A stretch of 64,000 nt of DNA from Roseovarius aestuariivivens. GTDB taxonomy: Bacteria; Pseudomonadota; Alphaproteobacteria; Rhodobacterales; Rhodobacteraceae. Of this stretch, positions 8,540 to 26,857 are shown in pieces. The translations under genes and the position numbers were made by a program. The notes below the pieces were generated by a model. That model worked only from the letters and a program-made list of their open reading frames with translations, was not told the DNA's origin and made no database searches. The stretch spans positions 62,001 through 126,000 of the forward strand of contig NZ_SJEY01000005.1 of assembly GCF_004761875.1 (NCBI RefSeq), in the 5' to 3' direction. Each line of letters starts with the position of its first letter. The first letter of the stretch is position 1.

Positions 8540-9457
8540 CTAAGCTCCATGCAAGGCGCGATCAGCCATAACCGCAGCCGAGGTTCGATTGTCTACGCCC
8601 ATCTTGTGAAAGATCTGCTCGAGATGCTTGTTGACGGTGCGCGCGCTCAGCGACAGGATCTCGGCGATATCCCGGTTCGTCTTACCGTGGGACAGCCATA
8701 ATAGCACTTGCGCCTCTCGCGCGGTCAGGTTGAAGGTTCTTGCCAGCCGCTCGTCCTCGGTGCCTGCCGTATCTTCCTTGATGCGCACCACGATCTCGCC
8801 CTGAACCTGCCCCAGATAGACAAGAGTCAGACGGTCGTTGGCATAAGGCTTTGCCGCCGACATCGGCTGTGAGCCAAGCCGCGAGAGCCACGTCTGCACC
8901 GCGGCGGTGGCGGCCCCGTTTTCGACGAGACCCGCCTCCGTCACGCGTTCGACAGCATTCGGTGTGCCCCAACTGACACGACCGTCCGTCGCGAAGGCGA
9001 CCACGGTTTGCCCAGCATATTGCAGCGCGGCGCGTGCCGACTGAATCGCGCGGGCGTTCAGCACATGGGTCGTGATCCGCGCCAGCAGTTCCTCGATAAC
9101 CACGGGTTTGGTGATGTAGTCCACGCCGCCCGCCTGAAGTCCGCGCAGGATATGCTCCGATTCCGACATCCCCGTCATAAAAATGACCGGCGCCGAGGTG
9201 GCATTTGGCGTGGCCTTGAGACGCCGGCACGTTTCGAAACCGTCGAGCCCCGGCATCACCGCGTCCATCAGGATCACGTCTGGCTGCACACGCTGAGCGA
9301 GCGCGATGCCCTCCTCGCCGGAGCGCGCCACAAGGACGGTCACGCCGTTTTCCTCCAAAGCGCGCGAGACCAGACCGAGGGTTTCGGGCGCATCGTCAAT
9401 CGCAAGCGCAATGAAGCGTCCCATGGCAATGGGATTGTGAGCTACGTCAGGCGGCAT
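8540..9457 (-). CDS. Response regulator: receiver + PAS-like + LuxR helix-turn-helix
   Basis: A 305-residue regulator. The receiver domain occupies about 14-130, with phosphoacceptor D65 in VILMDAVMPG and the acidic pair D21/D22 and the late lysine present. A middle region (about 140-235) looks like a degenerate PAS domain. The LuxR/NarL helix-turn-helix lies near the C-terminus (LTAREAQVLLWLSHGKTNRDI). The start at 9457 has an AAGGAG ten bases upstream and overlaps the kinase gene by 11 bases, so the two are cotranslated. It is the natural partner of the upstream hybrid kinase and the likely activator of the divergent amide operon (inference from context). Confidence 0.9.
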   Translation of the reverse strand: MPPDVAHNPIAMGRFIALAIDDAPETLGLVSRALEENGVTVLVARSGEEGIALAQRVQPDVILMDAVMPGLDGFETCRRLKATPNATSAPVIFMTGMSESEHILRGLQAGGVDYITKPVVIEELLARITTHVLNARAIQSARAALQYAGQTVVAFATDGRVSWGTPNAVERVTEAGLVENGAATAAVQTWLSRLGSQPMSAAKPYANDRLTLVYLGQVQGEIVVRIKEDTAGTEDERLARTFNLTAREAQVLLWLSHGKTNRDIAEILSLSARTVNKHLEQIFHKMGVDNRTSAAVMADRALHGA

Positions 9458-12400
9458 GCTGCATCATCTCCTTCAGCATTCGGGCGACAGCTGGCAGATC
9501 GAATTCGGAAAGACGCAAACGCAATAACGCGACCTGCTCGGATTCGACCTCTTGTCCAGCGGTCAGTGCATCAAGCTCGCGCGTGATCCCGGCGGCGTGG
9601 CCGATCTCGGCAAGTCGGTACATCCGCGCAAGCGCGTCTGCGGGAACCGTGTGAGTGTCTTGGCGAATTTCCTCATCGGTGATCAGGTCGACCTGCAGAA
9701 GACCCGCCATCCGAGCAAGCACGTCACTGAGTGAATATGGCTTCACGATGAAGGCATCGTAGAGCTGCTGGCGATCGATGGATTGACGTGCTTCGAGCGC
9801 GTGACCTGTCACCATCATGATCGGCGTCGAACGATGTTCAGGCCGGTCGCGCAGTGCTTGCGCCAAATCCCATCCCGTCATACCAGGCATGTCGATGTCC
9901 AGCACGAAGAGATCCGGCTTAACGTCGTTGAGCGCGCTTATCGCCGCTTCACCCGTCGGCAAAACCTGTACGAGAAATCCGAGCGGGCGCAGCATGGTTT
10001 CCAAAAGCCGCAGATGGTCGTGGTCGTCATCAACCACCATTACCGTCTTGCGCGGGCCGAGATAGCCGGTTGCGTTGATCCTCTCCCGCAACGTCCAGGC
10101 CGAACTGGGAATCGCACTATCGCGCAAGGACGGCAGCATCAAGCGGACCGAGAACGTCGTACCTTCCCCGCGCAGACTGTCGACCTTTATCTCGCCCCCA
10201 AGAACTTCAACCAGAAGCCGGGTGATGGTCAGACCAAGACCGCTTCCGCTGGATGCCTGTTGCGCGAAACGCTCGAACGGCTTCCAGATGCGCTCAATAT
10301 TTTCCTCTTCGATCCCAATCCCGGTATCGCTGACCTCGATCAGCGCGACCTCGTTGCGATAGTGTAGATGCAACGTGACGGTGCCAGTGGGCGTGTAGTT
10401 GATCGCGTTGGACAGCAGATTGATCAGGATCTGACGCAGGCGCTTTTCGTCAAACTCAATCCATTCCGGCGGGTTGCCGGAGGTCCGAATGCCGAAATCC
10501 AGCCCCTTCTCTCGCGCCTGACGCTGAAACACCGCGGCAATCTGCCGAAGAAGAGCCGGCAGGTTGATCCGGTCGCGATAGATTTCCAGCCGTCCCGCCT
10601 CGATCTTGGAAATGTCGAGCAGATTTTCGATCAGCGCCGCAAGATGTTCCGAGCCGCGCCGGATCGCAAGAACGGCCTCGCGGCGTCCGGCCGGCATGTC
10701 GCGATCCTGCTCCATCAACTGGGCGTACCCGTAGATGGCGTTGAGAGGCGTACGCAATTCGTGGCTGATGCCCGCCATGTAACGCGTCTTGGCAAGGTTC
10801 GCGGCTTCGGCCTTTTCCTTAGCCGCTTGAAGTTGCGCGTCCGTTCGATCGTGGGCACGGATTTCGCGCAAGAGACGCTGAGTCTGGATGCTTGCCTCGT
10901 CGCGAGCCTTGTTATGGCTTTCACGCACAAGAATGAAGGTCCACACAACGATGCCGTTCACCACCAGAAGCGTGCAGAACAGGATCGTCAGCACCGCATC
11001 GAACTGCGGGCTTTCGGCTTTTGCCCGGATCAATAACAGAACGCCGGCGACGATCGCCGAAGGCACGGCCGTGGCAATCATGAAGACGGATAACCGCGAG
11101 GTCAGCAGATCGAAAACTGATGTCGGCAAGACGCGCCGCAGCGTGCCCACCAACATCACACCAATCGTTGCATGCGGCTTGCAACTGTCGCGGCAGGAGG
11201 CATCGAGCGTGCAACACAGCGAACAGATCGGCCCTGCGTAGAACGGGCAGTCGGTCATGTCCTCCGGGTCGAACCGGTACTCGCAAACGCAACAGGTCTG
11301 CGTACCTTTGGGCTGGGCGGCCTGAGGCTCACTGACAGGCCGCGCGATATAATATTTGCCGCCTGTCGCCCAAGCGATCATTGGGGCAACTGCGAACGCT
11401 GTCGCGAGCGCAACCAGCGCCGAGAAGGGCTGCAAGGTTTCACCAAGCCCCCCCACAAGCGTGAGCACCGAGATCAGAACAGCGGCCAGCATTGCGCCAG
11501 TACCCACCGGATTGATGTCATAAAGGTGCGCGCGACGGAACTCGATCCCTTTCGGGCTGAGGCCCAGGGGTTTGTTGACAACCAGATCAGCGGTCAGCGC
11601 GCCTATCCAGGCGAGGGCCACGTGGGAATAGAGGCCGAGGATGGACTCGATGACGTGGAACACACCAAGTTCCATCAGCATCAGCGCGATGGACACGTTG
11701 AACACCAGCCAGATCACGCGCCCCGGATGAGAATGCGTTATCCGCGAAAAGAAATTCGACCAGGCAATCGAGCCGGCATAGGCGTTTGTCACATTGATCT
11801 TGAGCTGCGACAGAATGACGAACGCCCCTGTCAGGGCCAAAGCGACGTAGGGAATGGTGATGACTTGATCGAACGCCGCGAAATACATCTTCGTCGGATC
11901 GGTTGCATCGCGCGGAGGAACGTGAGCGGAAATCGCAAGTGTCAGTAGAAAGGACCCAGCAAGCATCTTCGCTACGCCGAGAACGGTCCAGCCCGGTCCC
12001 GCCGCCAACAACGCAAACCACCAGCGGCGCCGCTCGGACGGGGTTGTAGGTTCTCGAAGAAAGCGCAGGAAATCCACTTGTTCGCCGATTTGGGCGATCA
12101 GCGACAGCACAACGCCCATCGCTGCCCCGATCATCATGACGGTAGGTCCGTCCGCGCCCCGCTCCCCGACGAAGTCGGTCCAAGTGCCAAGGTCTACGCC
12201 AGAATAGGCAAGAAGCACGAAAGGCAGGATATGTAGGACAATCCAGAATGGCTGCGTCCAGGTCTGAAAGGTGGAGATCTTGGAGAATCCGTTAATCACA
12301 AGAGGAATGACCACCATTGCAGAAAGCAGGTATCCGATCCCGAGCGGCACGCCGAAGCAGAACTCCAGCGCGAAGGCCAGAATCGCGGCTTCAAGCGCGA

Positions 12401-12788
12401 AAAATATGAAGGTGAACGTCGCATAGATCAGCGACGTGATCGTCGAGCCGATGTAGCCGAACCCTGCTCCGCGGGTCAGCAGATCAATGTCGACGCCATA
12501 GCGCGCGCCATAATAGCTGATGGGCAGGCAGGTCAGGAACAGGATTAGGCCGGCCAGCATGATCGCGATGATCGCGGCGTCGAACCCGTAGATCAGCGTC
12601 AGTGCGCCGCCGATGGCCTCAAGCGCAAGAAACGAGATCGAGCCAAGTGCGGTGTTGGCCACGCGCGCATAGCTCCAGCGCCTCGCGCGACGCGCGGTAT
12701 AGCGCAGAGCGAAGTCTTCCATCGTTTCATTGGCAACCCAGCGATTGTATTTTCGCCGTCCACCCGTGGCACTGAAAGAAATGGCCAT
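9447..12788 (-). CDS. NCS1-type permease fused to a hybrid sensor histidine kinase
   Basis: A 1113-residue protein. Residues 40-485 are a full purine-cytosine-permease (NCS1)-like membrane domain of about twelve hydrophobic segments. Residues 499-536 hold nine cysteines (499, 500, 502, 514, 522, 525, 526, 532, 536). Two further membrane segments (about 567-587 and 600-621) precede a coiled coil. HisKA has H676 in GISHELRTP; the ATPase domain has N794 and the DTGIGI and GSGLGL boxes; a receiver follows with D964. The last about 95 residues are helical and show no obvious HPt histidine. The start at 12788 gives the YNRWVANET N-terminus; longer forms add unrelated sequence. It is divergent from an amide/urea-type ABC operon, implying that substrate binding or transport by the permease domain controls the kinase. 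The ligand is unknown. Confidence 0.88.
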   Translation of the reverse strand: MAISFSATGGRRKYNRWVANETMEDFALRYTARRARRWSYARVANTALGSISFLALEAIGGALTLIYGFDAAIIAIMLAGLILFLTCLPISYYGARYGVDIDLLTRGAGFGYIGSTITSLIYATFTFIFFALEAAILAFALEFCFGVPLGIGYLLSAMVVIPLVINGFSKISTFQTWTQPFWIVLHILPFVLLAYSGVDLGTWTDFVGERGADGPTVMMIGAAMGVVLSLIAQIGEQVDFLRFLREPTTPSERRRWWFALLAAGPGWTVLGVAKMLAGSFLLTLAISAHVPPRDATDPTKMYFAAFDQVITIPYVALALTGAFVILSQLKINVTNAYAGSIAWSNFFSRITHSHPGRVIWLVFNVSIALMLMELGVFHVIESILGLYSHVALAWIGALTADLVVNKPLGLSPKGIEFRRAHLYDINPVGTGAMLAAVLISVLTLVGGLGETLQPFSALVALATAFAVAPMIAWATGGKYYIARPVSEPQAAQPKGTQTCCVCEYRFDPEDMTDCPFYAGPICSLCCTLDASCRDSCKPHATIGVMLVGTLRRVLPTSVFDLLTSRLSVFMIATAVPSAIVAGVLLLIRAKAESPQFDAVLTILFCTLLVVNGIVVWTFILVRESHNKARDEASIQTQRLLREIRAHDRTDAQLQAAKEKAEAANLAKTRYMAGISHELRTPLNAIYGYAQLMEQDRDMPAGRREAVLAIRRGSEHLAALIENLLDISKIEAGRLEIYRDRINLPALLRQIAAVFQRQAREKGLDFGIRTSGNPPEWIEFDEKRLRQILINLLSNAINYTPTGTVTLHLHYRNEVALIEVSDTGIGIEEENIERIWKPFERFAQQASSGSGLGLTITRLLVEVLGGEIKVDSLRGEGTTFSVRLMLPSLRDSAIPSSAWTLRERINATGYLGPRKTVMVVDDDHDHLRLLETMLRPLGFLVQVLPTGEAAISALNDVKPDLFVLDIDMPGMTGWDLAQALRDRPEHRSTPIMMVTGHALEARQSIDRQQLYDAFIVKPYSLSDVLARMAGLLQVDLITDEEIRQDTHTVPADALARMYRLAEIGHAAGITRELDALTAGQEVESEQVALLRLRLSEFDLPAVARMLKEMMQHAA

Positions 12789-12950
12789 GAAAGGTCCCAG
12801 TTTTTGCTCGGACCATGCCCTCCCCCTGGCACGGCAATTTTGCGCAGACACACGCGCAACACACGCATGGCAGGCCGCTCGAACAGGCCCTCCCGCCCGA
12901 ACGTCCAAGCAACTCGTCATGCACTCTGCAGGGTAAAAACGCCCAATCAA

Positions 12951-12968
12951 ATACGTCATTCGACGTAT
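12951..12968. promoter_or_regulatory. Inverted repeat in the divergent control region of the amide operon
   Basis: ATACGTC-ATTC-GACGTAT is a perfect 7-bp inverted repeat with a 4-base spacer. It lies 87 bases before the binding-protein gene and 163 bases before the kinase gene start. A -10-like TATACT begins inside its right arm (12966-12971). It is the best candidate operator for the LuxR-type regulator encoded next to the kinase. A second short repeat (CTGCA-T-TGCAG) follows directly. Confidence 0.5.
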
Positions 12969-13054
12969 ACTGCATTGCAGCATTTGCTGCCAGCCTTCCG
13001 GTCAGAGGCACATTCGTCCCGTCTCACCGACATCTGCACTGACAAGGAGGCATT

Positions 13055-14326
13055 ATGTCCGACACGAAAAAACCAAATGGTATCAATAACCTGAGCCGCC
13101 GCGCCGTTCTCGCAGGCGGCGCCGCGCTTTCGGCTTCTCTCTTCACGCCCAAGATGCTGCGGGCTTCGGATTTTCCGACCGACGTCGTTAACACGACCGG
13201 CCTCGCGGTTACGGATACAACCGTGACATGTGGTATCCTGCACTCCGTTACTGGGACGATGGCAATTTCCGAGACCGGATCGGTTCAGGCCGAAAAGCTC
13301 GCCATCGAGCAGATCAATGCGCAGGGTGGTATTCTCGGGCGTAAGGTCGAATACATTCAGGAAGACGGCGCATCCGATTGGCCCACCTTCGCCGAGAAAG
13401 CGCGCAAGCTTCTCGTGAACGACAAAGTTGCCTCGGTCATGGGCTGCTGGACCTCGGCAAGCCGCAAAGCCGTTCTGCCGGTCTTCGAACAGCACAACGG
13501 CTTCCTCTACTATCCCACCTTCTACGAGGGGCTGGAGGAAAGCCCGAACGTCATCTACACCGGCCAAGAAGCCACCCAGCAGATCATCGCGGGCCTCGAC
13601 TGGGTCAACCAGACAAAGGGCGCAAAGTCGTTCTATCTACTTGGGTCGGACTACATCTGGCCGCGCACGTCGAACAAGATCGCGCGCAAGCACATCGAGA
13701 ACTTCATGGATGGCTGCAAGGTCGTGGGCGAAGAGTACTATCCGCTCGGCCACACGCAGTTCAACTCGGTCATCAACAAGATCCGCCTGCGCAAGCCCGA
13801 CGTGATCTACGCAATCGTCGTGGGCGGCTCGAACGTGGCCTTCTACAAGCAGCTGAAGGCGGCCGGTATCGACCCATCCGAGGAAAGCCCGATCGTTCTG
13901 ACCATTTCCGTGACCGAGGACGAAATCCGCGGCATCGGCGGCGAGAATGTGGATGGCGCCTATGCCTGCATGAAGTACTTCCAGAGCCTGGAGAACGAGA
14001 ACAACCAGGAATTTGTCAAGGCTTTCAAAGAGATGTGGGGCGAAGACATGGTCATCGGCGACGTGACGCAGGCCGCCTATCTTGGTCCGTGGCTGTGGAA
14101 AGCCGCCGTCGAGAAGGCCGGGTCCTTCGACGTCGACAAGGTGCGCGAGGCCAGCCCCGGCATTGAATTCACCGGCGCGCCTGAAGGCTATGTGCGCATC
14201 CACGAGAACCACCACCTCTGGTCCAAGACCCGGGTGGGTCGCGCCAAGGCGGACGGTCAATACGAAGTGGTCTACGAGACCGCGGACCTCGTCGAGCCCG
14301 ATCCTTTCCCCGAAGGCTACCAGTAA
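13055..14326 (+). CDS. Tat-exported substrate-binding protein of an amide/urea-type ABC transporter
   Basis: A 423-residue periplasmic binding protein of the UrtA/FmdD class (branched-chain amino acid superfamily). A twin-arginine signal, with RR at 15-16 in LSRRAVLAGG, shows export in folded form. The ribosome binding site AAGGAGG lies five bases before the ATG. The mature domain has the type I binding fold, with the family segments GILHSVTGTMAISE and QYIWPRTSNK-like YIWPRTSNK. It delivers urea or short-chain amides to the permeases encoded next. Because formamidase is in the same operon and no urease gene is here, formamide or a small amide is the likelier ligand (inference). It is followed by a strong hairpin that may set its higher expression. 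Confidence 0.88.
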   Translation: MSDTKKPNGINNLSRRAVLAGGAALSASLFTPKMLRASDFPTDVVNTTGLAVTDTTVTCGILHSVTGTMAISETGSVQAEKLAIEQINAQGGILGRKVEYIQEDGASDWPTFAEKARKLLVNDKVASVMGCWTSASRKAVLPVFEQHNGFLYYPTFYEGLEESPNVIYTGQEATQQIIAGLDWVNQTKGAKSFYLLGSDYIWPRTSNKIARKHIENFMDGCKVVGEEYYPLGHTQFNSVINKIRLRKPDVIYAIVVGGSNVAFYKQLKAAGIDPSEESPIVLTISVTEDEIRGIGGENVDGAYACMKYFQSLENENNQEFVKAFKEMWGEDMVIGDVTQAAYLGPWLWKAAVEKAGSFDVDKVREASPGIEFTGAPEGYVRIHENHHLWSKTRVGRAKADGQYEVVYETADLVEPDPFPEGYQ

Positions 14327-14338
14327 GGGCTGTCTCCC

Positions 14339-14368
14339 CTCCGGCCCGTTTGCGTGACCGGGCCGGAG
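14339..14368 (+). terminator. Intercistronic hairpin after the binding-protein gene
   Basis: A perfect 10-bp GC-rich inverted repeat, CTCCGGCCCG and CGGGCCGGAG with a 10-base loop, starts 12 bases after the binding-protein stop. It lacks a T-run. Such hairpins often act as partial terminators or block 3' decay, giving more binding protein than permease. Confidence 0.6.
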
Positions 14369-14461
14369 ACCAGAGCCCAAACCTGCGCCGCGTTCGTCAT
14401 ACGCGCGGCGCAGGCCCGTCCTTCCATCCTCCCGCTGCTTCCAGACACGGAAAGACATCCC

Positions 14462-15388
14462 ATGTTCTCAGACTATTCCATGAGCGAGCTGACCGCGATC
14501 TTTGCCATGCAGGGGTTCGCCGGTCTCATCCTGTTTTCGGTCTTCGTGCTGATGGCACTCGGCCTTGCAATCATTTTCGGCCAGATGGGCGTTATCAACA
14601 TGGCGCATGGCGAGTTCATGATCCTCGGCGCCTACGTGACTTACCTGATGTCGAACCTGTTCGCCGACTACATGCCGGCGCTTTTCGGCATGTATTTTTT
14701 CGTGGCGATGATCTTCGCCTTTTTCGCGTCAGGCGCCCTCGGAATGTTGGTGGAATGGTCGCTGATACGTCACCTTTACAAACGCCCGCTCGACACGCTT
14801 CTGGCCACGTGGGGACTGAGCCTTATCCTGCAGCAGGTTTACCGTTCAGTCTTTGGCGCACGTGAAGTGGGCGTAAGTATTCCGAACTGGATGATGGGTT
14901 CTTACCCGATCACCGATCTTATCGAAATTCCGATCAACGGAATGTTCGTGATGACACTGGCCATCAGCATTTCACTCGCAGTGTACATCATGATGTACCG
15001 CTCCGGCTGGGGTAAACAGGTGCGCGCAATCAACAACAACCGTCAGATGGCTGATGCCGTGGGCATCAACACCGCCTGGACGGACCGCATGACCTTCGGC
15101 ATCGGCTGTGGCGTGGCAGGCGTGGCCGGATCAGCCTTTACGATGATCGGCTCCACCGGACCAACCGCAGGTCAGCTCTACATCGTCGACACCTTCCTTG
15201 TGGTCGTGTTCGGCGGCGCGGGTAGCCTTCTGGGCACCATCGCCAGCGCCTTCTCGATCAGCCAGGCCCAGTCGATCATGGAATTCTTCCTGTCGGGCTC
15301 GATGGCCAAGGTGCTCACCCTGCTGGTCGTGGTCGGCATCCTGATGGTGCGTCCGCAGGGCCTCTTCACCCTTAAGCTGCGCAAGTAA
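14462..15388 (+). CDS. ABC transporter permease, UrtB/LivH type
   Basis: A 308-residue inner-membrane permease with eight or more hydrophobic segments and the family signature GQMGVINMAHGEFMILGAY near the N-terminus. The start at 14462 (MFSDYSMSE) has GGAAAG about nine bases upstream; a longer form would add a hydrophilic, unrelated leader. It forms the membrane channel together with the next permease. The order binding protein - permease - permease - ATPase - ATPase is the one seen in urea (urtABCDE) and formamide (fmdDEF-type) uptake operons. Confidence 0.88.
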   Translation: MFSDYSMSELTAIFAMQGFAGLILFSVFVLMALGLAIIFGQMGVINMAHGEFMILGAYVTYLMSNLFADYMPALFGMYFFVAMIFAFFASGALGMLVEWSLIRHLYKRPLDTLLATWGLSLILQQVYRSVFGAREVGVSIPNWMMGSYPITDLIEIPINGMFVMTLAISISLAVYIMMYRSGWGKQVRAINNNRQMADAVGINTAWTDRMTFGIGCGVAGVAGSAFTMIGSTGPTAGQLYIVDTFLVVVFGGAGSLLGTIASAFSISQAQSIMEFFLSGSMAKVLTLLVVVGILMVRPQGLFTLKLRK

Positions 15389-15401: not shown

Positions 15402-16544
15402 ATGCAAAAAGCTCAAATCAAACACCCCTTCCTGACCCGGCGAGACATTATCGGGTACGCCATCCTCGCAGCCGTTATCTTCGTGCTGTTCCCCGCGATC
15501 CTCGACAGCTTTCGCCTGAATCTCTTCGGCAAGTACCTCACCTACGCCTTCGTTGCGGTCGGTCTCACGCTTTGCTGGGGCGTGGGAGGAATCCTGAGCC
15601 TTGGTCAGGGCATCTTCTTCGGCCTAGGCGGCTACTGCATGGCGATGTTCCTCAAGCTTGAGGCCTCGACGCCGGAAAACACCGCCATCCAGTCCACCCC
15701 GGGTATCCCGGATTTCATGGACTGGAACCAGCTCACAGCACTGCCCTGGTGGTGGGAGCCGTTCTACTCCTTGCCCTTCGCCCTTCTGGCGGTGGTCGCG
15801 GTGCCGGTCATCTTCGCCTTCATCATCAGCTTCGCAATGTTCACGAGGCGCGTGAGCGGCGTCTATTTCGCAATCATCACGCAGGCTGTCGTCGCGATCC
15901 TTGCCATCCTGATCATCGGACAACAGGGCTATACCGGCGGCGTCAACGGGATCACCGATTTGCGCACGCTGCTTGGCTGGGACATCCGCACCGAAGAGGC
16001 CAAGACGACGCTCTACTTCGTCAACGCGGTCCTGCTCTTTACCGTGCTCTTCGTTGCGCAGTTCGTACGCAAGTCGAAGATGGGCCGCCTTCTGATCGCC
16101 ATGCGCGACCAGGAAGACCGCGTGCGCTTCTCGGGCTATAACGTCGCCAGCTTCAAGATCTTCATCTTCTGCCTCGGCGCGGCCTTCGCCGGGATCGGCG
16201 GGGCGATGTTTACGCTTCAGGTCGGGTTCATGTCGCCCACCCTGATCGGTATCGTGCCCTCTATCGAGATGGTGATCTTCTGCGCTGTAGGTGGCCGGAT
16301 GTCGATCATCGGTGCGGTCTATGGCGCCCTGCTTGTAAACTGGGCCAAGACAACCTTCTCCGAAAGCTTCCCCGAGCTCTGGCTCTTCGGTCTAGGCGCG
16401 CTTTTCATCGCGGTCGTGATGGCCTTCCCGAACGGTCTGGCCGGTGTCTGGGTCGAAAAGATCGAACCGCTCATCAAGAAATTCTGGCCCGGCGGCGCGA
16501 AGGACACGGTCGCGCCCGCCGCAAAGCCTAACCCTGCGGAATGA
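15402..16544 (+). CDS. ABC transporter permease, UrtC/LivM type
   Basis: A 380-residue permease of the LivM/UrtC family with about ten membrane segments and the signature LSLGQGIFFGLGGYCMAMFL. Later it has the EDRVRFSGYN cytoplasmic loop that contacts the ATPases. The start is preceded by GGGAGGC. The C-terminal tail is hydrophilic and rich in Lys, Ala and Pro. It lies 13 bases after the first permease and 8 bases before the first ATPase gene, so it belongs to the same transcript. Confidence 0.88.
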   Translation: MQKAQIKHPFLTRRDIIGYAILAAVIFVLFPAILDSFRLNLFGKYLTYAFVAVGLTLCWGVGGILSLGQGIFFGLGGYCMAMFLKLEASTPENTAIQSTPGIPDFMDWNQLTALPWWWEPFYSLPFALLAVVAVPVIFAFIISFAMFTRRVSGVYFAIITQAVVAILAILIIGQQGYTGGVNGITDLRTLLGWDIRTEEAKTTLYFVNAVLLFTVLFVAQFVRKSKMGRLLIAMRDQEDRVRFSGYNVASFKIFIFCLGAAFAGIGGAMFTLQVGFMSPTLIGIVPSIEMVIFCAVGGRMSIIGAVYGALLVNWAKTTFSESFPELWLFGLGALFIAVVMAFPNGLAGVWVEKIEPLIKKFWPGGAKDTVAPAAKPNPAE

Positions 16545-16552
16545 GGTGAGCC

Positions 16553-17305
16553 ATGCTGGACATGAACAACAAGAACTTCGTGCTGATGGTCGAGGACCTC
16601 ACGGTTTCCTTCGACGGGTTCAAGGCGGTCAATGACCTCAGCTTTTATGTCGAACCCAACGAGTGCCGAGTGATCATCGGCCCGAACGGCGCAGGCAAGA
16701 CAACTGTCCTTGACCTCATCTGCGGGCGCACGCGGGCCACGTCCGGGTCCATCGCCTTCAAGGGCAAAGACCTTTTGAAGATGCGCGAGGACCAGATCGT
16801 GCATGCCGGAGTTGGTCGGAAGTTCCAGACGCCTTCGGTGTACGAGGACCTCACCGTTTTCGCCAACCTCGAGCTCAGCTATCCGAAGGGCCACAGCGTC
16901 TTTGGCGCTCTCTTCTTCAAGCGGGACGAGGCAGTGCGTCAGCGGATCGAAGAAATCGCCGAGATGATCTTTCTCAGCGATCTGCTCACCCAAAAGGCCG
17001 CGTTTCTCAGCCACGGACAAAAGCAGTGGCTGGAGATAGGAATGCTGCTCATCCAGGACCCGGAACTTCTGATGCTCGATGAACCCGTGGCGGGCATGTC
17101 CGTCGCCGAGCGCAAGAAGACTGCCGAGCTGCTCAACCGCATTATCGCCGACCGCTCGGTCATCGTCATTGAGCACGACATGAGCTTTGTCGCCGATATC
17201 GCGACGCGCGTCACCGTCCTGCACCAGGGACAGGTGCTGTCGGAAGGCTCGATGGAGCATGTCCAGAACGACCCGAAAGTCGTCGAAGTCTACCTCGGTC
17301 ACTGA
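16553..17305 (+). CDS. ABC transporter ATP-binding protein, UrtD type
   Basis: A 250-residue ATPase. Walker A is GPNGAGKTT at about 43-51, the signature is the variant LSHGQKQWLEIG, Walker B is LLMLDEPVAGM and the H-loop is in IVIEHDMSF. The signature reads LSHGQ rather than LSGGQ, which is normal in UrtD proteins and supports the urea/amide-type assignment over a branched-chain amino acid transporter. GAGGTGAG precedes the start. It pairs with the second ATPase to power the two permeases. Confidence 0.88.
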   Translation: MLDMNNKNFVLMVEDLTVSFDGFKAVNDLSFYVEPNECRVIIGPNGAGKTTVLDLICGRTRATSGSIAFKGKDLLKMREDQIVHAGVGRKFQTPSVYEDLTVFANLELSYPKGHSVFGALFFKRDEAVRQRIEEIAEMIFLSDLLTQKAAFLSHGQKQWLEIGMLLIQDPELLMLDEPVAGMSVAERKKTAELLNRIIADRSVIVIEHDMSFVADIATRVTVLHQGQVLSEGSMEHVQNDPKVVEVYLGH

Positions 17306-17316
17306 AAGGAAAGCTG

Positions 17317-18006
17317 ATGTTGAACGTCAAGGAACTCCGCTCGGCCTATGGCGAAAGCGAGGTGCTTCATGGCCTCGACCTTGAGGTCAAGCCGGGAGAG
17401 ATCGTCGCGATTATGGGCCGCAACGGCATGGGCAAGACCACGTTGATGAAGACGCTCATGGGGCTGATGCCCACCAAGTCCGGAGCTGTCAGCGTCGAGG
17501 GCAAGACGGTCACCGATCTCAAGCCGTATCAGCGCGTCGCCAATGGCATCGCCTATGTGCCGCAGGGCCGCATGATCTTCTCTAGCATGACGGTACAGGA
17601 AAATGTCGAGACGGGTCTGACCTCGACAGGCGAAAAGACCGTGCCCCAAGATATCTACGAACTTTTTCCCGTTTTGCTGGAGATGAAGTCGCGCCGGGGC
17701 GGCAATCTGTCGGGCGGTCAGCAGCAACAGCTTGCAATTGCCCGTGCGCTCGCCTCTCGTCCCAAGGTTTTGCTTCTCGATGAGCCGACCGAAGGCATCC
17801 AGCCGTCGATCATCCGCGAGATGGCGCGCACGCTGCGCAAAATCCGGGATGAAAAGGGCCTGTCCATCGTGGTGTCCGAACAGGTCCTGACCTTCGCGCT
17901 CGACGTGGCTGATCGGGTGGTGGTGCTCGAAAACGGCACCTTCGTCCATGACAGCCCGCGCGAAGGCATCGATGAGGCGAAAGTCTCGAAATTCCTATCC
18001 GTCTGA
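17317..18006 (+). CDS. ABC transporter ATP-binding protein, UrtE type
   Basis: A 229-residue ATPase with Walker A GRNGMGKTT at 34-42, signature LSGGQQQQLAIAR and Walker B VLLLDEPTEGIQPS. GRNGMGKTT is typical of UrtE/LivF subunits. It starts 11 bases after the UrtD-type gene and is followed 22 bases later by fmdA, so transporter and amidase appear to be one transcription unit. Confidence 0.88.
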   Translation: MLNVKELRSAYGESEVLHGLDLEVKPGEIVAIMGRNGMGKTTLMKTLMGLMPTKSGAVSVEGKTVTDLKPYQRVANGIAYVPQGRMIFSSMTVQENVETGLTSTGEKTVPQDIYELFPVLLEMKSRRGGNLSGGQQQQLAIARALASRPKVLLLDEPTEGIQPSIIREMARTLRKIRDEKGLSIVVSEQVLTFALDVADRVVVLENGTFVHDSPREGIDEAKVSKFLSV

Positions 18007-18028: not shown

Positions 18029-19258
18029 ATGGCAGATACGCTTATCTCGGTCGATCTTTCCGAAAGCCCGCATACCAACGAGGCGGTGCACAACCGGTGG
18101 CATCCCGACATCCCGATCGCAGTCTGGGTCGAGCCGGGCGACGATTTCAAGATCGAAACCTATGACTGGACCGGTGGTCAGATCAAAAACGACAATGACG
18201 CCGCCGATGTGCGCGACGTGGAACTGGAACAGGTGCACTACCTGTCTGGCCCCATCGGGGTGAAGGGCGCTGAGCCGGGCGACCTGCTCAAGGTCCACAT
18301 CCTCGATATCGGCGCCAAGGAAGAGATGAACTGGGGCTTCAACGGCTTCTTCTCCAAGCAGAACGGCGGCGGGTTCCTTACCGATCACTTCCCCGAGGCG
18401 CAGAAATCCATCTGGGATTTCCATGGCATGTTCACTTCGTCGCGCCATGTGCCGGGCGTGAAATATGCGGGCCTCATCCACCCTGGCCTGATCGGCTGTC
18501 TGCCTGACCGCAACATGCTGGATATGTGGAACAGCCGCGAGACGGCGCTTTTCAACACTGATCCGGACCGCACCCCTCCGCTGGCCGCGCTGCCCAATAC
18601 CCAATCGGCCCATATGGGCAAGCTCACCGGCGACGAGAAAGAAAAAGCTGCCGCCGAGGCTGCCCGTACCGTTCCGCCGCGCGAACATGGCGGCAACTGC
18701 GACATCAAGGACCTCAGCCGCGGCTCGACCTGCTATTTCCCGGTCTATGTCGATGGCGCGGGCCTTTCGATGGGCGATCTGCACTTCAGCCAAGGCGACG
18801 GCGAGATCACCTTCTGCGGCGCCATCGAAATGGCCGGCTGGCTGCATATCCAGGTCGAGCTGATCAAGGGCGGGATGGAGAAATACGGGATTAAGAACCC
18901 GATCTTCAAACCCTCGCCGATCACGCCGAAGTATGACGACTACCTGATCTTCGAAGGTATCTCCGTCGATGAAAGCGGCGAGCAGCACTATCTCGACGTG
19001 CATGTCGCCTATCGCCAGGCCTGTCTCAACGCCATCGAGTATCTCAAGAAGTTCGGCTATTCCGGCGCACAGGCCTACGCGATTCTCGGCACGGCACCGG
19101 TGCAGGGGCATATCTCGGGCGTGGTGGACATCCCCAACGCCTGCGCCACGCTATGGCTGCCGAACGAGATCTTCGATTTCGATATCATGCCCGGCTCGGA
19201 CGGCCCGACCAAGCATCTCGACGGTTCAGTCGATATCCCGCTCGCGCCCGATCTGTAA
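18029..19258 (+). CDS. fmdA: Formamidase (FmdA/AmdA family)
   Basis: A 409-residue enzyme of the FmdA_AmdA family, the normal length. It hydrolyses formamide (and often acetamide and other short amides) to the acid and ammonia in the cytoplasm. Characteristic segments include HNRWHPDIP near the N-terminus, GFNGFFSKQNGGGFL, GLIHPGLIGCLPD, the central REHGGNCDIKDLSRGS and HFSQGDGEI. AGAGAGGAC precedes the start. Its place behind a five-gene amide/urea-type transporter and before fmdB matches formamide-utilisation clusters of methylotrophs. It would supply nitrogen, with formate as a C1 by-product (inference). Confidence 0.93.
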   Translation: MADTLISVDLSESPHTNEAVHNRWHPDIPIAVWVEPGDDFKIETYDWTGGQIKNDNDAADVRDVELEQVHYLSGPIGVKGAEPGDLLKVHILDIGAKEEMNWGFNGFFSKQNGGGFLTDHFPEAQKSIWDFHGMFTSSRHVPGVKYAGLIHPGLIGCLPDRNMLDMWNSRETALFNTDPDRTPPLAALPNTQSAHMGKLTGDEKEKAAAEAARTVPPREHGGNCDIKDLSRGSTCYFPVYVDGAGLSMGDLHFSQGDGEITFCGAIEMAGWLHIQVELIKGGMEKYGIKNPIFKPSPITPKYDDYLIFEGISVDESGEQHYLDVHVAYRQACLNAIEYLKKFGYSGAQAYAILGTAPVQGHISGVVDIPNACATLWLPNEIFDFDIMPGSDGPTKHLDGSVDIPLAPDL

Positions 19259-19316: not shown

Positions 19317-19652
19317 ATGCCCTATTACGACTATAGCTGCCCCGACTGCGGACCCTTCACAGGCTTCGCCGCAATGGCCGATTTCGACAAGCCCTGCCAC
19401 TGTCCCAGTTGCGCCGCACAATCACCGCGCGTCCTATTGCGAGCCCCGGCCTTTGCCAACATGGACGGCACGACGCGCACCGCGATCGCAACCAACGAAC
19501 GCGCGCAACATGCGCCCAAATCGACCAGGTCACATGGCCCGGGCTGCTCTTGCTGTTCCTCTTCCTCCAAGAAATTGCCCAGCCGCACTCTGCACAGGCC
19601 GGACGGTTCGAAAAGCTTTCCCTCCGCTCGCCCCTGGATGATCTCTCATTAG
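19317..19652 (+). CDS. fmdB: FmdB-family zinc-ribbon protein
   Basis: A 111-residue protein that begins with the FmdB signature MPYYDYSCPDCG and a second cysteine pair CPSC at about 37-40, forming a zinc ribbon. A later cluster GCSCCSSSSK ends the conserved part. FmdB proteins are encoded beside fmdA and were proposed as regulators of formamidase or transport; the molecular role remains weakly established. ACGCGGAG precedes the ATG. It closes the amide operon. Confidence 0.88.
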   Translation: MPYYDYSCPDCGPFTGFAAMADFDKPCHCPSCAAQSPRVLLRAPAFANMDGTTRTAIATNERAQHAPKSTRSHGPGCSCCSSSSKKLPSRTLHRPDGSKSFPSARPWMISH

Positions 19653-22581: not shown

Positions 22582-22878
22582 ATGGTTGATGTCACAATCG
22601 TCTACTGGCGCGACATTCCTGCGCAGGTCATCGTCGGCAAAGGCCGCCGGGGAGCGAAGAAGCAGCTTCCCGAGCGCTTCGAGCAGGCCATCGACCGTGC
22701 AGCGATGAAGACCGGTGCGGCCGGAACCAACGAATATCTCGCCGAATGGCGCAAGGCTGCGCCTTACACGGTTGAAGGCGACGCCGACGACGTGGCCGCG
22801 TCTGAGGCCGCGCGTCTCGATGCGGAATATGATCAGGACCGCATCAAGTCCCTGATCGCAAACGATGGCTGGGCATGA
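22582..22878 (+). CDS. Small 'virulence factor' family protein (PF13769-like)
   Basis: A 98-residue soluble protein, MVDVTIVYWRDIPAQVIVGKG, of a small family called virulence factor in Roseobacter annotations, though no virulence role is evident. In these bacteria it sits directly before a MetF-like reductase and a pterin-dependent methyltransferase, as here, pointing to B12/folate C1 metabolism. It is basic near the N-terminus and acidic toward the C-terminus. Its stop lies 26 bases before the preferred reductase start and overlaps an alternative ATG at 22875. Confidence 0.75.
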   Translation: MVDVTIVYWRDIPAQVIVGKGRRGAKKQLPERFEQAIDRAAMKTGAAGTNEYLAEWRKAAPYTVEGDADDVAASEAARLDAEYDQDRIKSLIANDGWA

Positions 22879-22904
22879 GCCCGAATTCTCTCTGGGAGGC
22901 CGCG

Positions 22905-23831
22905 ATGGCTCTTTTGAACTTCAAGAAGCGTGAGAAAACCGCACCCGCTGGCAATGCCGAGCTTGAGGCCTTTCTCAAGGGCTATTCGATCGAGGTGATG
23001 CCGCGCACCGCCGAGAAGGTCGAGAATTTCCGCGACCTTCTGCCCGCGGGCACGCGCGTTTACATCGCCCATATCGAGGGCACGCCCATCGAGGATATGG
23101 TCGCCACCGCCAAGCGTCTCTCGTCCGAGGGATACAACGTGATGCCGCATTTCCCGGCGCGTATCATCAAGAACAAAGCGACGCTGGAGGACTGGATTGC
23201 CCGCTACCAAGGCGAGGCTGGCGTCGAACAGGCGCTGCTGCTGGCCGGTGGCGTGACCACGCCCCATGGCGATTTCGACAGCTCCATGCAGCTTATGGAA
23301 ACTGGTGCCTTTGACCGCGCGGGCTTTAAGCGACTGCACGTGGCCGGCCACCCCGAGGGCAACCGCGACATCGACCCCGATGGCGGCATGAAGAATGTCG
23401 AAGATGCGCTCCGCTGGAAGCAGGCGTTCTCCGAGCGCACGGACGCGGAGATGGCGCTTGCCACGCAGTTCGCCTTTGATGCAGGTCCGATCATCAAGTG
23501 GGCCGACAGCCTGCGCGAGGCCGGGATCACCCTGCCCGTCCATATCGGCATCGCCGGTCCCGCGAAGCTCCAGACGTTGATCAAGTTCGCTATCGCCTGC
23601 GGCGTGGGCCCGTCGCTCAAGGTCCTGCAGAAGCGCGCGATGGACGTTTCAAAGCTGCTGCTTCCCTATGAGCCGACCGAAGTTCTGACCCAACTCGCGG
23701 CGCACAAAGCCAAGAACCCTGACTTCAACATCGAAAACGTGCACTTCTTCCCGTTGGGCGGCATCAAATCGAACGCTGAATGGGCCATCAACAACGGTGG
23801 CGAGGCCACCAAACCAGCCAACGCATCCTGA
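22905..23831 (+). CDS. Methylenetetrahydrofolate reductase-like protein
   Basis: A 308-residue TIM-barrel protein of the MetF superfamily. It would reduce 5,10-methylene-THF to 5-methyl-THF, the methyl donor for methionine synthesis. Family segments include SIEVMPRTAEKV near the N-terminus, YIAHIEGTP, GYNVMPHFPAR, LLLAGGVTTPHGDF and HVAGHPEGN. The start at 22905 (MALLNF) follows GGGAGG by five bases; an ATG at 22875 overlaps the previous stop but has no ribosome binding site. The next gene encodes the pterin-binding methyltransferase, whose substrate this enzyme would make. The sequence differs from canonical MetF, so the name describes family rather than proven activity. Confidence 0.85.
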   Translation: MALLNFKKREKTAPAGNAELEAFLKGYSIEVMPRTAEKVENFRDLLPAGTRVYIAHIEGTPIEDMVATAKRLSSEGYNVMPHFPARIIKNKATLEDWIARYQGEAGVEQALLLAGGVTTPHGDFDSSMQLMETGAFDRAGFKRLHVAGHPEGNRDIDPDGGMKNVEDALRWKQAFSERTDAEMALATQFAFDAGPIIKWADSLREAGITLPVHIGIAGPAKLQTLIKFAIACGVGPSLKVLQKRAMDVSKLLLPYEPTEVLTQLAAHKAKNPDFNIENVHFFPLGGIKSNAEWAINNGGEATKPANAS

Positions 23832-23841
23832 AAGGCGCTTC

Positions 23842-24912
<1,071 letters not shown>

Positions 24913-25637: not shown

Positions 25638-26243
25638 TCAGACGAGACCAAGGTCGCGAGCCAGCATGGCCGCATGGGTACGGTTTTTCGCACCAAGTTT
25701 GCGCGATAGCGTTTTCACGTGAAGCTTGACCGTGACTTCCTGAATGTCGAGATCCCGGGCAATTTCCTTGTTGAGCTTGCCTTCCGTGACCCCCAACAGC
25801 ACGTCGCGTTCCCGGGGTGTAAGCTGAACGGTCGCGTTCTCGGTGTCGCTGTCGGCGAGGAATTCCAGCGGCAGATACACCTGCCCTGTCATCATCTGGC
25901 GTACCGCCGAGAGCATCGCCTGCGGCGTCAAGGTCTTCGGCACGAAACCCGCCGCGCCCGCGCGCAACGCGCGGCGCGCCACATCCGGCGGCGCGGTGCC
26001 CGACAGGATCGCGACCGGACATCCCGCCTCGGCCTGCATCCGGGCCACGCCATCCAGGGCCTCCATGCCAGGCATCTTGAAATCTAGCAGGATCAATCGG
26101 AACGGCCCTTGCGCCGCATTGATCGCAAGAGCGGTTTCGAAACTGTTCGCCTGCGCCACGTCGAAACCACCCTCTCGCCGCAGGTATTCCGACAGCGCTT
26201 CGCGCACCAGATCGTGGTCATCCGCCAGTAAAAGCTTGTCCAT
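25638..26243 (-). CDS. NarL/FixJ-type response regulator
   Basis: A 201-residue regulator starting MDKLLLADDHDLVREALSEYL. The receiver has D8/D9 and phosphoacceptor D54 in LILLDFKMPGM. The C-terminal LuxR helix-turn-helix contains LTPRERDVLLGVTEGKLNKEIA. A longer N-terminus is possible but unrelated to receiver domains. It is divergent from a periplasmic protein and a hybrid kinase, and the shared control region carries a NarL-like 7-2-7 palindrome, which suggests autoregulation and control of the neighbouring operon. Confidence 0.88.
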   Translation of the reverse strand: MDKLLLADDHDLVREALSEYLRREGGFDVAQANSFETALAINAAQGPFRLILLDFKMPGMEALDGVARMQAEAGCPVAILSGTAPPDVARRALRAGAAGFVPKTLTPQAMLSAVRQMMTGQVYLPLEFLADSDTENATVQLTPRERDVLLGVTEGKLNKEIARDLDIQEVTVKLHVKTLSRKLGAKNRTHAAMLARDLGLV

Positions 26244-26301
26244 TCGCCCTTTGTCTCGTGGCACCTTCGTGAGTGTTCTCTTGCCGGTATATATTGGCTG
26301 A

Positions 26302-26315
26302 TCTGGACTTCCAGA
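26302..26315. promoter_or_regulatory. NarL-like 7-2-7 palindrome in a divergent control region
   Basis: TCTGGA-CT-TCCAGA is a perfect 6-2-6 repeat, 6 of 7 if read as ATCTGGA-CT-TCCAGAC, the spacing NarL-family dimers bind. It lies 58 bases upstream of the regulator start and 20 bases upstream of the divergent gene at 26336. Confidence 0.5.
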
Positions 26316-26335
26316 CCAAACGATGATTTCGATAT

Positions 26336-26857
26336 ATGATCGAGGATCGGAGTACTTTGTTGATCGTGATACGTTTTTGCCTGATAAGTCTGCTCTTTGG
26401 CGCAGCAACGGCTTCTTTAGCGGCGGCCGATTGCAAAGATCAATTCGCCCTGCCTCTCAAGATGGAGTTCTCCGACCACGACGCGGAGAGTGTCGTTCTC
26501 TGTCCAGGGGATCTCGATGCGCTGCCTCAAGCAAGCTTCGAGACGACAACTCTCTGGACAAACGGCACGCAACGGTTCGAAGGCGTCTGGCTCGCTACGC
26601 TGCTTGAAGCGATTGGCGTGATCGATGGCGAAATCACGCTGCGCGCGATCAATGACTATGCGGTCACCGCCCGCGCGGAGACATTCGAAGAAGGAGGGGC
26701 TCTTCTGGCCTATCGTCGCAATGGCCAACCGATGAGCACACGCGACAAAGGGCCATACTGGCTCGTCTGGAATTACGACGCCAATCCCGACTTCAGAACA
26801 CAACAGATTTATTCGCTAAGCATCTGGCAACTGGACCGGATCACGGTTTCGCGGTAG
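26336..26857 (+). CDS. Small periplasmic protein with a sulfite-oxidase-like (molybdopterin-type) fold, likely sensory
   Basis: A 173-residue exported protein: the hydrophobic leader LISLLFGAATASLAAADC suggests signal peptide cleavage. The mature part, with TNGTQRFEGVWLATLLEAIGV, ALLAYRRNGQPM and GPYWLVWNYD, resembles the core of the oxidoreductase molybdopterin-binding domain but is much shorter than an enzyme. The ATG at 26336 lacks a ribosome binding site; a TTG at 26360 has GGAG seven bases upstream and may be the true start. It is cotranscribed with the hybrid kinase 35 bases downstream, so a periplasmic ligand-binding partner role is likely (inference). Confidence 0.7.
   Translation: MIEDRSTLLIVIRFCLISLLFGAATASLAAADCKDQFALPLKMEFSDHDAESVVLCPGDLDALPQASFETTTLWTNGTQRFEGVWLATLLEAIGVIDGEITLRAINDYAVTARAETFEEGGALLAYRRNGQPMSTRDKGPYWLVWNYDANPDFRTQQIYSLSIWQLDRITVSR

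Follow-up and report, generated by a model that had tools for sequence, protein, structure and literature searches.

This report concerns a permease–histidine kinase fusion, its partner response regulator and the operon that faces them in Roseovarius aestuariivivens. The window, as we call the whole stretch of DNA analysed, comprises 64,000 nucleotides (contig NZ_SJEY01000005.1, positions 62,001 to 126,000), and all coordinates refer to it unless a locus is named. The kinase gene lies on the reverse strand at 9447..12788 and encodes 1113 residues. Its open reading frame spans 9447-12983, but the start is likely at 12788, because nearer homologues begin aligning there and farther ones at residue 11; a start at 12983 is disfavoured, since a conserved promoter repeat would then sit within the kinase gene. 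Sharing 11 bp with the kinase gene, and on the same strand, is a response regulator gene (8540..9457) with a receiver (REC) domain (D65) and a LuxR/GerE DNA-binding domain, both recognized by Pfam. Across a gap of 266 bp, the divergent urtABCDE-fmdAB operon runs on the forward strand. It consists of urtA (13055..14326), for the binding protein of a urea/short-chain-amide ATP-binding cassette (ABC) transporter (TIGR03407, 549 bits against a cut-off of 492.75); the permease genes urtB (14354..15388; TIGR03409) and urtC (15402..16544; TIGR03408); the ATPase genes urtD (16553..17305; TIGR03411) and urtE (17317..18006; TIGR03410); the formamidase gene fmdA (18029..19258; NF045496, 764.7 bits against a cut-off of 500); and a gene for an fmdB-like small protein (19317..19652), named from its position and cysteine-containing start rather than from a family scan. 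All five Urt subunits and FmdA exceed their NCBIfam cut-offs, which places the operon in the class of Urt-type ABC transporters with a formamidase. A first-pass annotation of the window had already described the overlapping receiver-LuxR gene and the divergent binding protein, permeases, ATPases, fmdA and fmdB, and the NCBIfam and Pfam searches agree with it (for fmdB, place and sequence do). Three features are added to that description: an eight-cysteine (8-Cys) module (residues 499-536), a dyad in the promoter region (12951-12968) and, outside the window, another urt-urease cluster, of canonical type.

Along the kinase protein, with all coding coordinates on the reverse strand, an NCS1-like (LeuT-fold) membrane domain (residues ~19-483; 11340..12734) is followed by the 8-Cys module (11181..11294) and by a helical hairpin (residues ~565-625; 10914..11096) that, in the secondary structure of the model, runs into a long helix ahead of HisKA. 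HisKA (residues 667-732; 10593..10790; phospho-acceptor H676), HATPase_c (residues 780-885; 10134..10451) and a receiver (Response_reg, residues 916-1026; 9711..10043; D964) all score above their Pfam cut-offs. The H676 column holds histidine in 88 of 89 aligned rows and the D964 column aspartate in 83 of 89, the remainder being mostly gaps, so that both Pfam and the alignment agree with the earlier placement of these three domains and two residues in one frame. With HisKA, HATPase, REC, phospho-acceptors and a partner regulator all present, the pair belongs to the hybrid histidine kinase two-component class. No HPt domain was detected in the kinase or the regulator (Pfam, E 1e-3; no search was made elsewhere in the genome), and the stretch of the window protein between the 8-Cys module and HisKA has no Pfam match to PAS or to another cytoplasmic sensor domain. 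A STAC domain likewise has no Pfam match in the window protein, where the linker is modelled as 8-Cys module plus hairpin and was not compared with a STAC structure. Four relatives (L077, L080, L156 and L158) have shorter kinases of ~894-912 residues that adjoin fmdAB without urt and form one clade (support 98) on the tree described below. The L080 kinase, when scanned, has no receiver, and at both L077 and L080 the next gene encodes a distinct REC/HisKA/HATPase protein in which two receivers are matched.

Genomic linkage and co-occurrence

Relatives were collected from a scan of a species-genome collection, in which 80 of 102 relatives were kept, and from samples at two taxonomic levels. In the class sample 26 of 385 genomes match, one through a fragment and the other 25 in frames of at least 1124 residues. 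In the phylum sample 52 of 398 genomes have a strong kinase match, at 57 places; this count leaves out G595 (a fragment) and G413 and G554 (weak standalone matches). Setting aside the window and one place on a 4.8 kb contig (L174) leaves 55 places, for which up to 20 kb of surrounding sequence was examined, and 54 of these adjoin urt, fmd or urease genes. By neighbours, 35 have fmd and urt, 11 urt and urease, four urease only, two fmd only, two urt only and one none; in this last case the contig ends 393 bp beyond the kinase. Pooling all sources gives 143 places, an uneven sample that includes one standalone permease and leaves out L001 and L089-L118 (which duplicate the window or places fetched before), as do the motif counts below. 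Here fmd and urt together are again the commonest neighbours (83 places), followed by urt and urease (17), urt only (11), urease only (7), fmd only (4), fmd, urt and urease (3) and fmd and urease (3), with none at 15. Seven annotated neighbourhoods show the same settings: urt with formamidase, urt with urease, urt alone, or none of these.

Co-occurrence across the 398 genomes, in counts that include kinship among genomes, is sharpest for the formamidase. FmdA (NF045496) is found in 40 genomes and the kinase in 39 of these, compared with 13 of the 358 without FmdA; conversely, FmdA is present in 39 of the 52 kinase genomes and in 1 of the 346 kinase-less ones. Urease is found in 49 of 52 kinase genomes and in 94 of 346 others. 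In the sole FmdA genome without the kinase (G482, locus L180), no urt gene lies in the 20 kb around fmdA. A second formamidase, of the nitrilase family and unrelated to FmdA (PRK13287, cut-off 406), adjoins the kinase on a Klebsiella plasmid and in Paenirhodobacter, with 601.8 and 600.6 bits. The first-pass annotation had tied the kinase to amide and urea use, and named the lack of a conserved neighbourhood in relatives as the outcome that would speak against the tie; the 54 of 55 places, the 39 of 40 FmdA genomes and a common dyad at urt-fmd-type promoters instead reveal a neighbourhood that is kept.

The system is also found on plasmids. The kinase matches 520 plasmid records at E 1e-60; in 501 the match extends over 80% or more of its length, and 340 of the 520 are from Klebsiella. 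A 9.5 kb Klebsiella block (L082) holding the kinase, urtABCDE and the nitrilase-family formamidase is matched over 80% or more of its length in 341 plasmid records, most of them from Klebsiella, and to any extent in 374, of which 371 have their best place at 99% identity or above. The kinase-urt-formamidase block is thus mobile. Among the five plasmid records listed, the kinase is annotated merely as an ATP-binding protein. Elsewhere in the window, translations alone suggest another gene resembling a hybrid kinase, together with a REC-LuxR-like regulator (25638-26408 on the reverse and 26893-29430 on the forward strand), adjoining genes that resemble, by eye, folate one-carbon enzymes (22875-24912).

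An inverted repeat upstream of the target genes

Alignment of the kinase-urtA gaps from the window and 17 Rhodobacteraceae loci gave one conserved block, ATACGTC-N4-GACGTAT, with few changes. In the window it reads ATACGTC-ATTC-GACGTAT (12951..12968, no strand assigned), with its core repeat 87 bp from urtA, and we consider this dyad a predicted binding site of the LuxR-type response regulator. The exact form TACGTC-N4-GACGTA has one copy in the 3.94 Mb genome of the organism; with one mismatch allowed there are six dyads, the same as the control count (6). Across the 143 loci (2.9 Mb; dyad counts omit L179-L185), 89 dyads with at most one mismatch were found; for 86 of them, the start of urtA, fmdA, an amidase or formamidase gene, ureD or ureA follows within 350 bp. 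Taking every third locus, there are 39 real sites, 38 of them at targets, while 60 permuted repeats average 1.83 and 0.05 (maximum 8 and 1). Of the remaining three dyads, two lie within genes and one is ahead of a porin-like frame. This last dyad (L046:14083) is perfect and stands directly before a frame resembling, by eye, an outer-membrane porin, which recalls the amide porin of the Methylophilus operon.

The dyad tracks the target rather than the kinase. It is found ahead of separately promoted fmdA genes at seven loci (L119, L121, L125, L133, L146, L152 and L154), ahead of a relocated formamidase gene in perfect form (L042), ahead of amidase genes at L055 and L056, and ahead of ureD at L085. 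Among urtA genes with at least 150 bp upstream, a dyad with at most one mismatch precedes 70 of 91 of the fmd type and 4 of 19 of the urease type (shuffled control, 0 and 0), and some of the remaining urtA genes carry a looser TACG-N8-CGTA form. Counted by the neighbours of the kinase, such a dyad lies within 700 bp before it at 63 of 83 places with fmd and urt, 3 of 3 with fmd, urt and urease, 4 of 11 with urt only and 1 of 17 with urt and urease. None was found at the places with urease only (0/7), fmd only (0/4), fmd and urease (0/3) or no such neighbours (0/15), nor before the shorter kinases of L077, L080, L156 and L158.

The membrane domain, the 8-Cys module and the ligand

An AlphaFold2 model of residues 1-660 (47-sequence alignment; mean predicted local distance difference test, pLDDT, 85.5; predicted template-modelling score, pTM, 0.85) was compared with the PDB using Foldseek. 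The five best matches are all of NCS1 transporters, namely CodB (7qoa, E 6.1e-9, template-modelling score 0.76 by target) and Mhp1 (4d1a, 2jln, 2x79), at E-values from 6e-9 to 4e-8, with the next families, sialic acid and iodide symporters, at ~1e-5. An SLC5 identity finds no support, as the sialic acid, iodide and glucose symporters, which we take to be SLC5-type, rank below NCS1. The domain profile also finds standalone proteins in the phylum sample (L175 at 167.8 bits, L176-L178 more weakly), three of which are above the PF02133 cut-off while the fourth matches TIGR00800 under its cut-off. Alignment of the kinase membrane domains to these four with hhalign gives a probability of 99.9 over 437 columns, a partly circular result since the four were found with the same profile. 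The curated models behave differently. PF02133 has no match up to E 10 from the membrane domains of 19 relatives, for which three other families matched, is absent among the best 25 of the 29 families weakly matched by 47 longer relatives, and has 0 matches in the genome of the organism. Neither TIGR00800 nor any other NCBIfam model matches the window domain up to E 10, and no Pfam model does; PDB sequence searches with it returned nothing useful. Because CodB, Mhp1 and the hhalign results match and the curated models miss, the domain is NCS1 by fold and kinship but represents a divergent branch. The earlier call of an NCS1-like permease therefore stands for fold and profile and fails for the family models PF02133 and TIGR00800, and the domain, put then at about 445 residues, is intact and somewhat longer.

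Published CodB sites (from the available part of PMC9379551) were transferred to the kinase by alignment, a tentative mapping because Foldseek identity to CodB and Mhp1 is 16-19%; residue counts are over 89 rows and leave out a partial second copy in L057. On this alignment the Na2-site threonines T278/T279 of CodB become K330/I331. The aromatic residue of transmembrane helix 6 (TM6) that stacks ring substrates in NCS1 transporters (F204 of CodB) is absent, residue 231 being exclusively I, V, M, L, A or S, and W108 corresponds to residue 129, which is F in 79 rows and L in 10, so that the stacking pair W108/F204 is not found in the kinase domain. The Arg216-Tyr285 pair of CodB is kept as R242-Y337. 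In all, twelve mapped cavity and gate residues (T126, E133, Q233, E236, Q237, D239, R242, K330, I331, N332, N335 and Y337) show no variation across the 89 rows. The standalone relatives L175-L177 also have a basic residue at the K330 position, which is therefore not peculiar to kinases. These residues suggest a cavity that would bind a small, non-stacking polar ligand independently of sodium. The closest non-kinase relative found, the standalone NCS1 permease L175:4453-5946 (genome G553), adjoins a nitrilase/amidase-like protein and a UrtA-like binding protein and is a possible NCS1 amide transporter.

Between the membrane domain and the hairpin, the 8-Cys module follows the pattern C499-x2-C502-x11-C514-x7-C522-x2-C525-C526-x5-C532-x3-C536. 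All eight cysteines are kept in 47 of 47 rows of alignment A1, and, when the spacing is allowed to vary slightly, 142 loci carry the pattern, which is absent at one of the 143 places (L048). The kinase at L048:10001 has a truncated module with several cysteines gone, either a real loss or a sequence error. Searched against 359 genomes, the module profile finds 47 places in 43 genomes, every one a frame of at least 894 residues at a kinase place. Outside that sample, a standalone permease of Acidiphilium (L066:14382-15986) ends in the same 8-Cys tail without a kinase; it directly follows a kinase-regulator pair and may be a transporter paralogue or an accessory receptor. Against the PDB, the profile gives weak zinc-finger and rubredoxin matches only (hmmsearch), and the module model (pLDDT 75.5) retrieves, among the 50 Foldseek matches listed, mainly PHD, RING, LIM and FYVE zinc folds at E-values of 0.24 or above. 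These comparisons hint at a two-zinc cross-brace but are no evidence for it.

As to which ligand would be sensed, the genome of the organism encodes one such kinase. At another place it has a urease cluster that includes urt genes; the UrtA encoded there shares 71% identity with the urease-linked type and ~40% with the window UrtA. Because of this canonical cluster, the window urt genes are a second, divergent set beside a formamidase, which favours formamide or short amides as the probable ligand here, with urea as the other candidate. In a Pseudomonas with urtABCDE-fmdAB-amiE, formamide and acetamide serve as nitrogen source, and the authors report no amiC/amiR, according to the available portion of PMC13209695. 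The first-pass annotation had also proposed a purine-breakdown product, for which the seven annotated neighbourhoods give no support and the TM6 aromatic is missing; no systematic search was made. The exception among the seven is a Shinella plasmid, on which hydantoinase/oxoprolinase-family genes lie 2 kb past the kinase-regulator pair (L088:18461-22314), and as hydantoin is the ligand of Mhp1 these neighbours may be more than chance. A missing urease does not serve to decide between formamide and urea, as urease is found in 49 of the 51 kinase genomes tested and allophanate hydrolase in the remaining two (G583, the 52nd, has no urease and falls outside the allophanate hydrolase count). A clade split between fmd-type and urease-type kinases was not seen: the contexts are interleaved on a FastTree tree of the permease domain (69 sequences plus outgroup, 24 open forks), with about six changes.

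Interpretation, alternatives and known systems

The kinase is very probably the regulator of formamide-use genes, and of urea genes in some lineages, because it is present in nearly all sampled genomes with those genes and a matching dyad lies upstream of them. We further propose, with a probability of roughly two in three, that it is a transceptor-type two-component system controlling uptake and hydrolysis of formamide and other short-chain amides and, in some lineages, urea. The computed basis is the architecture, the overlapping REC-LuxR partner, the near-obligate linkage, the co-occurrence and the target repeat of urt-fmd type. In this proposal a small amide would bind the transporter cavity, most likely formamide in R. 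aestuariivivens, urea in urease-linked lineages, or possibly both. A conformational change of the membrane domain would then reach the kinase by way of the 8-Cys module, which is probably a two-zinc finger of structural role, and the hairpin. Phosphate would move from H676 to D964 and on to D65 of the response regulator, directly or via an unlinked phosphotransfer protein, and the regulator would bind ATACGTC-N4-GACGTAT and activate urtABCDE-fmdAB. The role of the permease as sensor, the identity of the ligand, the relay to the kinase, the order of phosphotransfer and the activation are the inferred parts, and the sign of the kinase response could be either. A wider claim, which we hold tentatively and at somewhat less than even odds, is that these proteins form a separate class of nutrient receptor: an NCS1-type core with a lysine at the sodium site, acting as receptor for primary amides (formamide and urea), an undescribed 8-Cys metal-binding coupling module found only in these proteins among 359 genomes, and a dyad regulon of its own across Pseudomonadota.

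Several results weigh against the transceptor proposal. The dyad chiefly marks urt-fmd loci and is mostly absent from urease-linked and receiver-less relatives. At the thresholds used, genes for urt, fmd or urease are missing from 15 of the 143 places; several are on short contigs, one carries an aliphatic amidase (L065) and one a urtA-like start at its end (L060), but Tistrella, Zoogloea, Polyangium, a Thiobacillus-type locus and one Methylomonas locus have long flanks and still no such genes. The distribution is patchy, as no other genome carrying the same family label matched in the class (385) or phylum (398) sample. No single ligand can be read from context, because neighbour type switches about six times while the 12 residues stay fixed, and urea keeps a claim as ligand because all 51 kinase genomes tested encode a urea-degrading enzyme. 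Finally, the transporter domain of CbrA is reported, in the available text of PMC9100948, to be non-essential for signal perception, so that a fused permease need not be the sensor.

The same system could sense urea throughout, with the fmd-linked urt genes encoding a urea transporter and formamidase a side function. The urea-degrading enzymes just mentioned speak for this, as do the standing of urt as the commonest partner, urease genes right beside the kinase in several FmdA-less lineages, and an NCBIfam name that calls the transporter urea-specific. It is nevertheless unlikely: co-occurrence with FmdA is far more specific than that with urease, two unrelated formamidases are found in the kinase setting, the genome of the organism already has a canonical urt set beside urease without this kinase, and L077, L080, L156 and L158 have fmdAB without urt. 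To about the same degree we doubt that the permease domain is an ordinary importer of amides attached to a kinase whose signal is read elsewhere, as the cytoplasmic ammonium or nitrogen state or by the 8-Cys module as metal or redox state. The CbrA report, the eight near-invariant cysteines and the standalone L066 permease with the same tail would fit such an importer. The lack of a PAS or other cytoplasmic sensor match argues the other way, as do cavity residues conserved as strongly as the cysteines and the single exact dyad in the genome, which gives no sign of a broad nitrogen regulon.

Considerably less probable again is that the kinase is a general nitrogen-starvation sensor and its urt neighbourhood incidental. 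Operons of the urt type are often under nitrogen control, which this explanation can draw on. It can also draw on the repression of a related operon by ammonia (as given in the available part of the review PMC10781810), but one exact target site in the genome and linkage to formamidases of two unrelated families run counter to it. An unrelated kinase in a chance neighbourhood is scarcely credible, being contradicted by the linkage, co-occurrence and dyad results with nothing found in its favour.

The transceptor proposal can be set beside systems already described. Like the protein here, the SLC5-STAC kinases (CbrA/CbrB, CrbS/CrbR, also known as MxtR/ErdR, and RpuS/RpuR) join a LeuT-fold transporter to a histidine kinase; CrbS and RpuS are hybrid kinases with a LuxR-type partner, as here (PMC9100948, in the text available), and CrbR works through an inverted repeat, as we propose, though its dyad differs in sequence (PMC5715377, likewise in part). 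The differences lie in an NCS1-like rather than SLC5 transporter, in an 8-Cys module and hairpin with no STAC or PAS match by Pfam, and in linkage to amide and urea genes rather than to histidine, acetate or pyruvate. A lysine at the Na2 site is a further likeness: in CbrA it is K196, from another helix, that fills the site (PMC13022988, a preprint, in the portion accessible), and here, on our alignment, K330 replaces the Na2 threonine. CodB and Mhp1 share the fold and, in CodB, the Arg-Tyr pair, but the kinase domain differs in having no match to PF02133/TIGR00800, Lys330/Ile331 for Thr278/Thr279, an aliphatic or small residue for the TM6 aromatic, and a kinase fused to it.

Among amide systems, fmdABCDEF of Methylophilus methylotrophus combines formamidase with binding-protein-dependent amide/urea uptake and is induced by formamide and urea (PMC10781810, in the sections available); the operon here differs in its five urt-type genes and in a dedicated permease-kinase and regulator, which those sections do not mention for Methylophilus. 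AmiC/AmiR also senses short amides for an amidase operon (PMC13209695, in the part accessible) but does so with a binding protein and an antiterminator instead of a membrane kinase. Among the open-access matches listed, titles and the openings of abstracts mention no NCS1-kinase fusion and no urt/fmd kinase (subscription papers fall mostly outside this scope), and PMC8399564 mentions NCS1 once, in the title of a thesis that it cites. The first-pass annotation had stated that transporter-kinase fusions such as CbrA exist and that no NCS1 example with a defined ligand is known. Within the accessible literature, fusion of a transporter to a kinase is already known, and novelty lies in the transporter family, coupling module, regulon and binding site. 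Formamide and urea are small nitrogen sources, and the urt-fmd operon, without a named regulator in the listed literature matches as far as they are accessible, now has a candidate regulator and a predicted site. Beside CbrA, the kinase would be a second transporter-to-kinase design with another transporter family and another coupling module, making signalling through a transporter fold testable by comparison.

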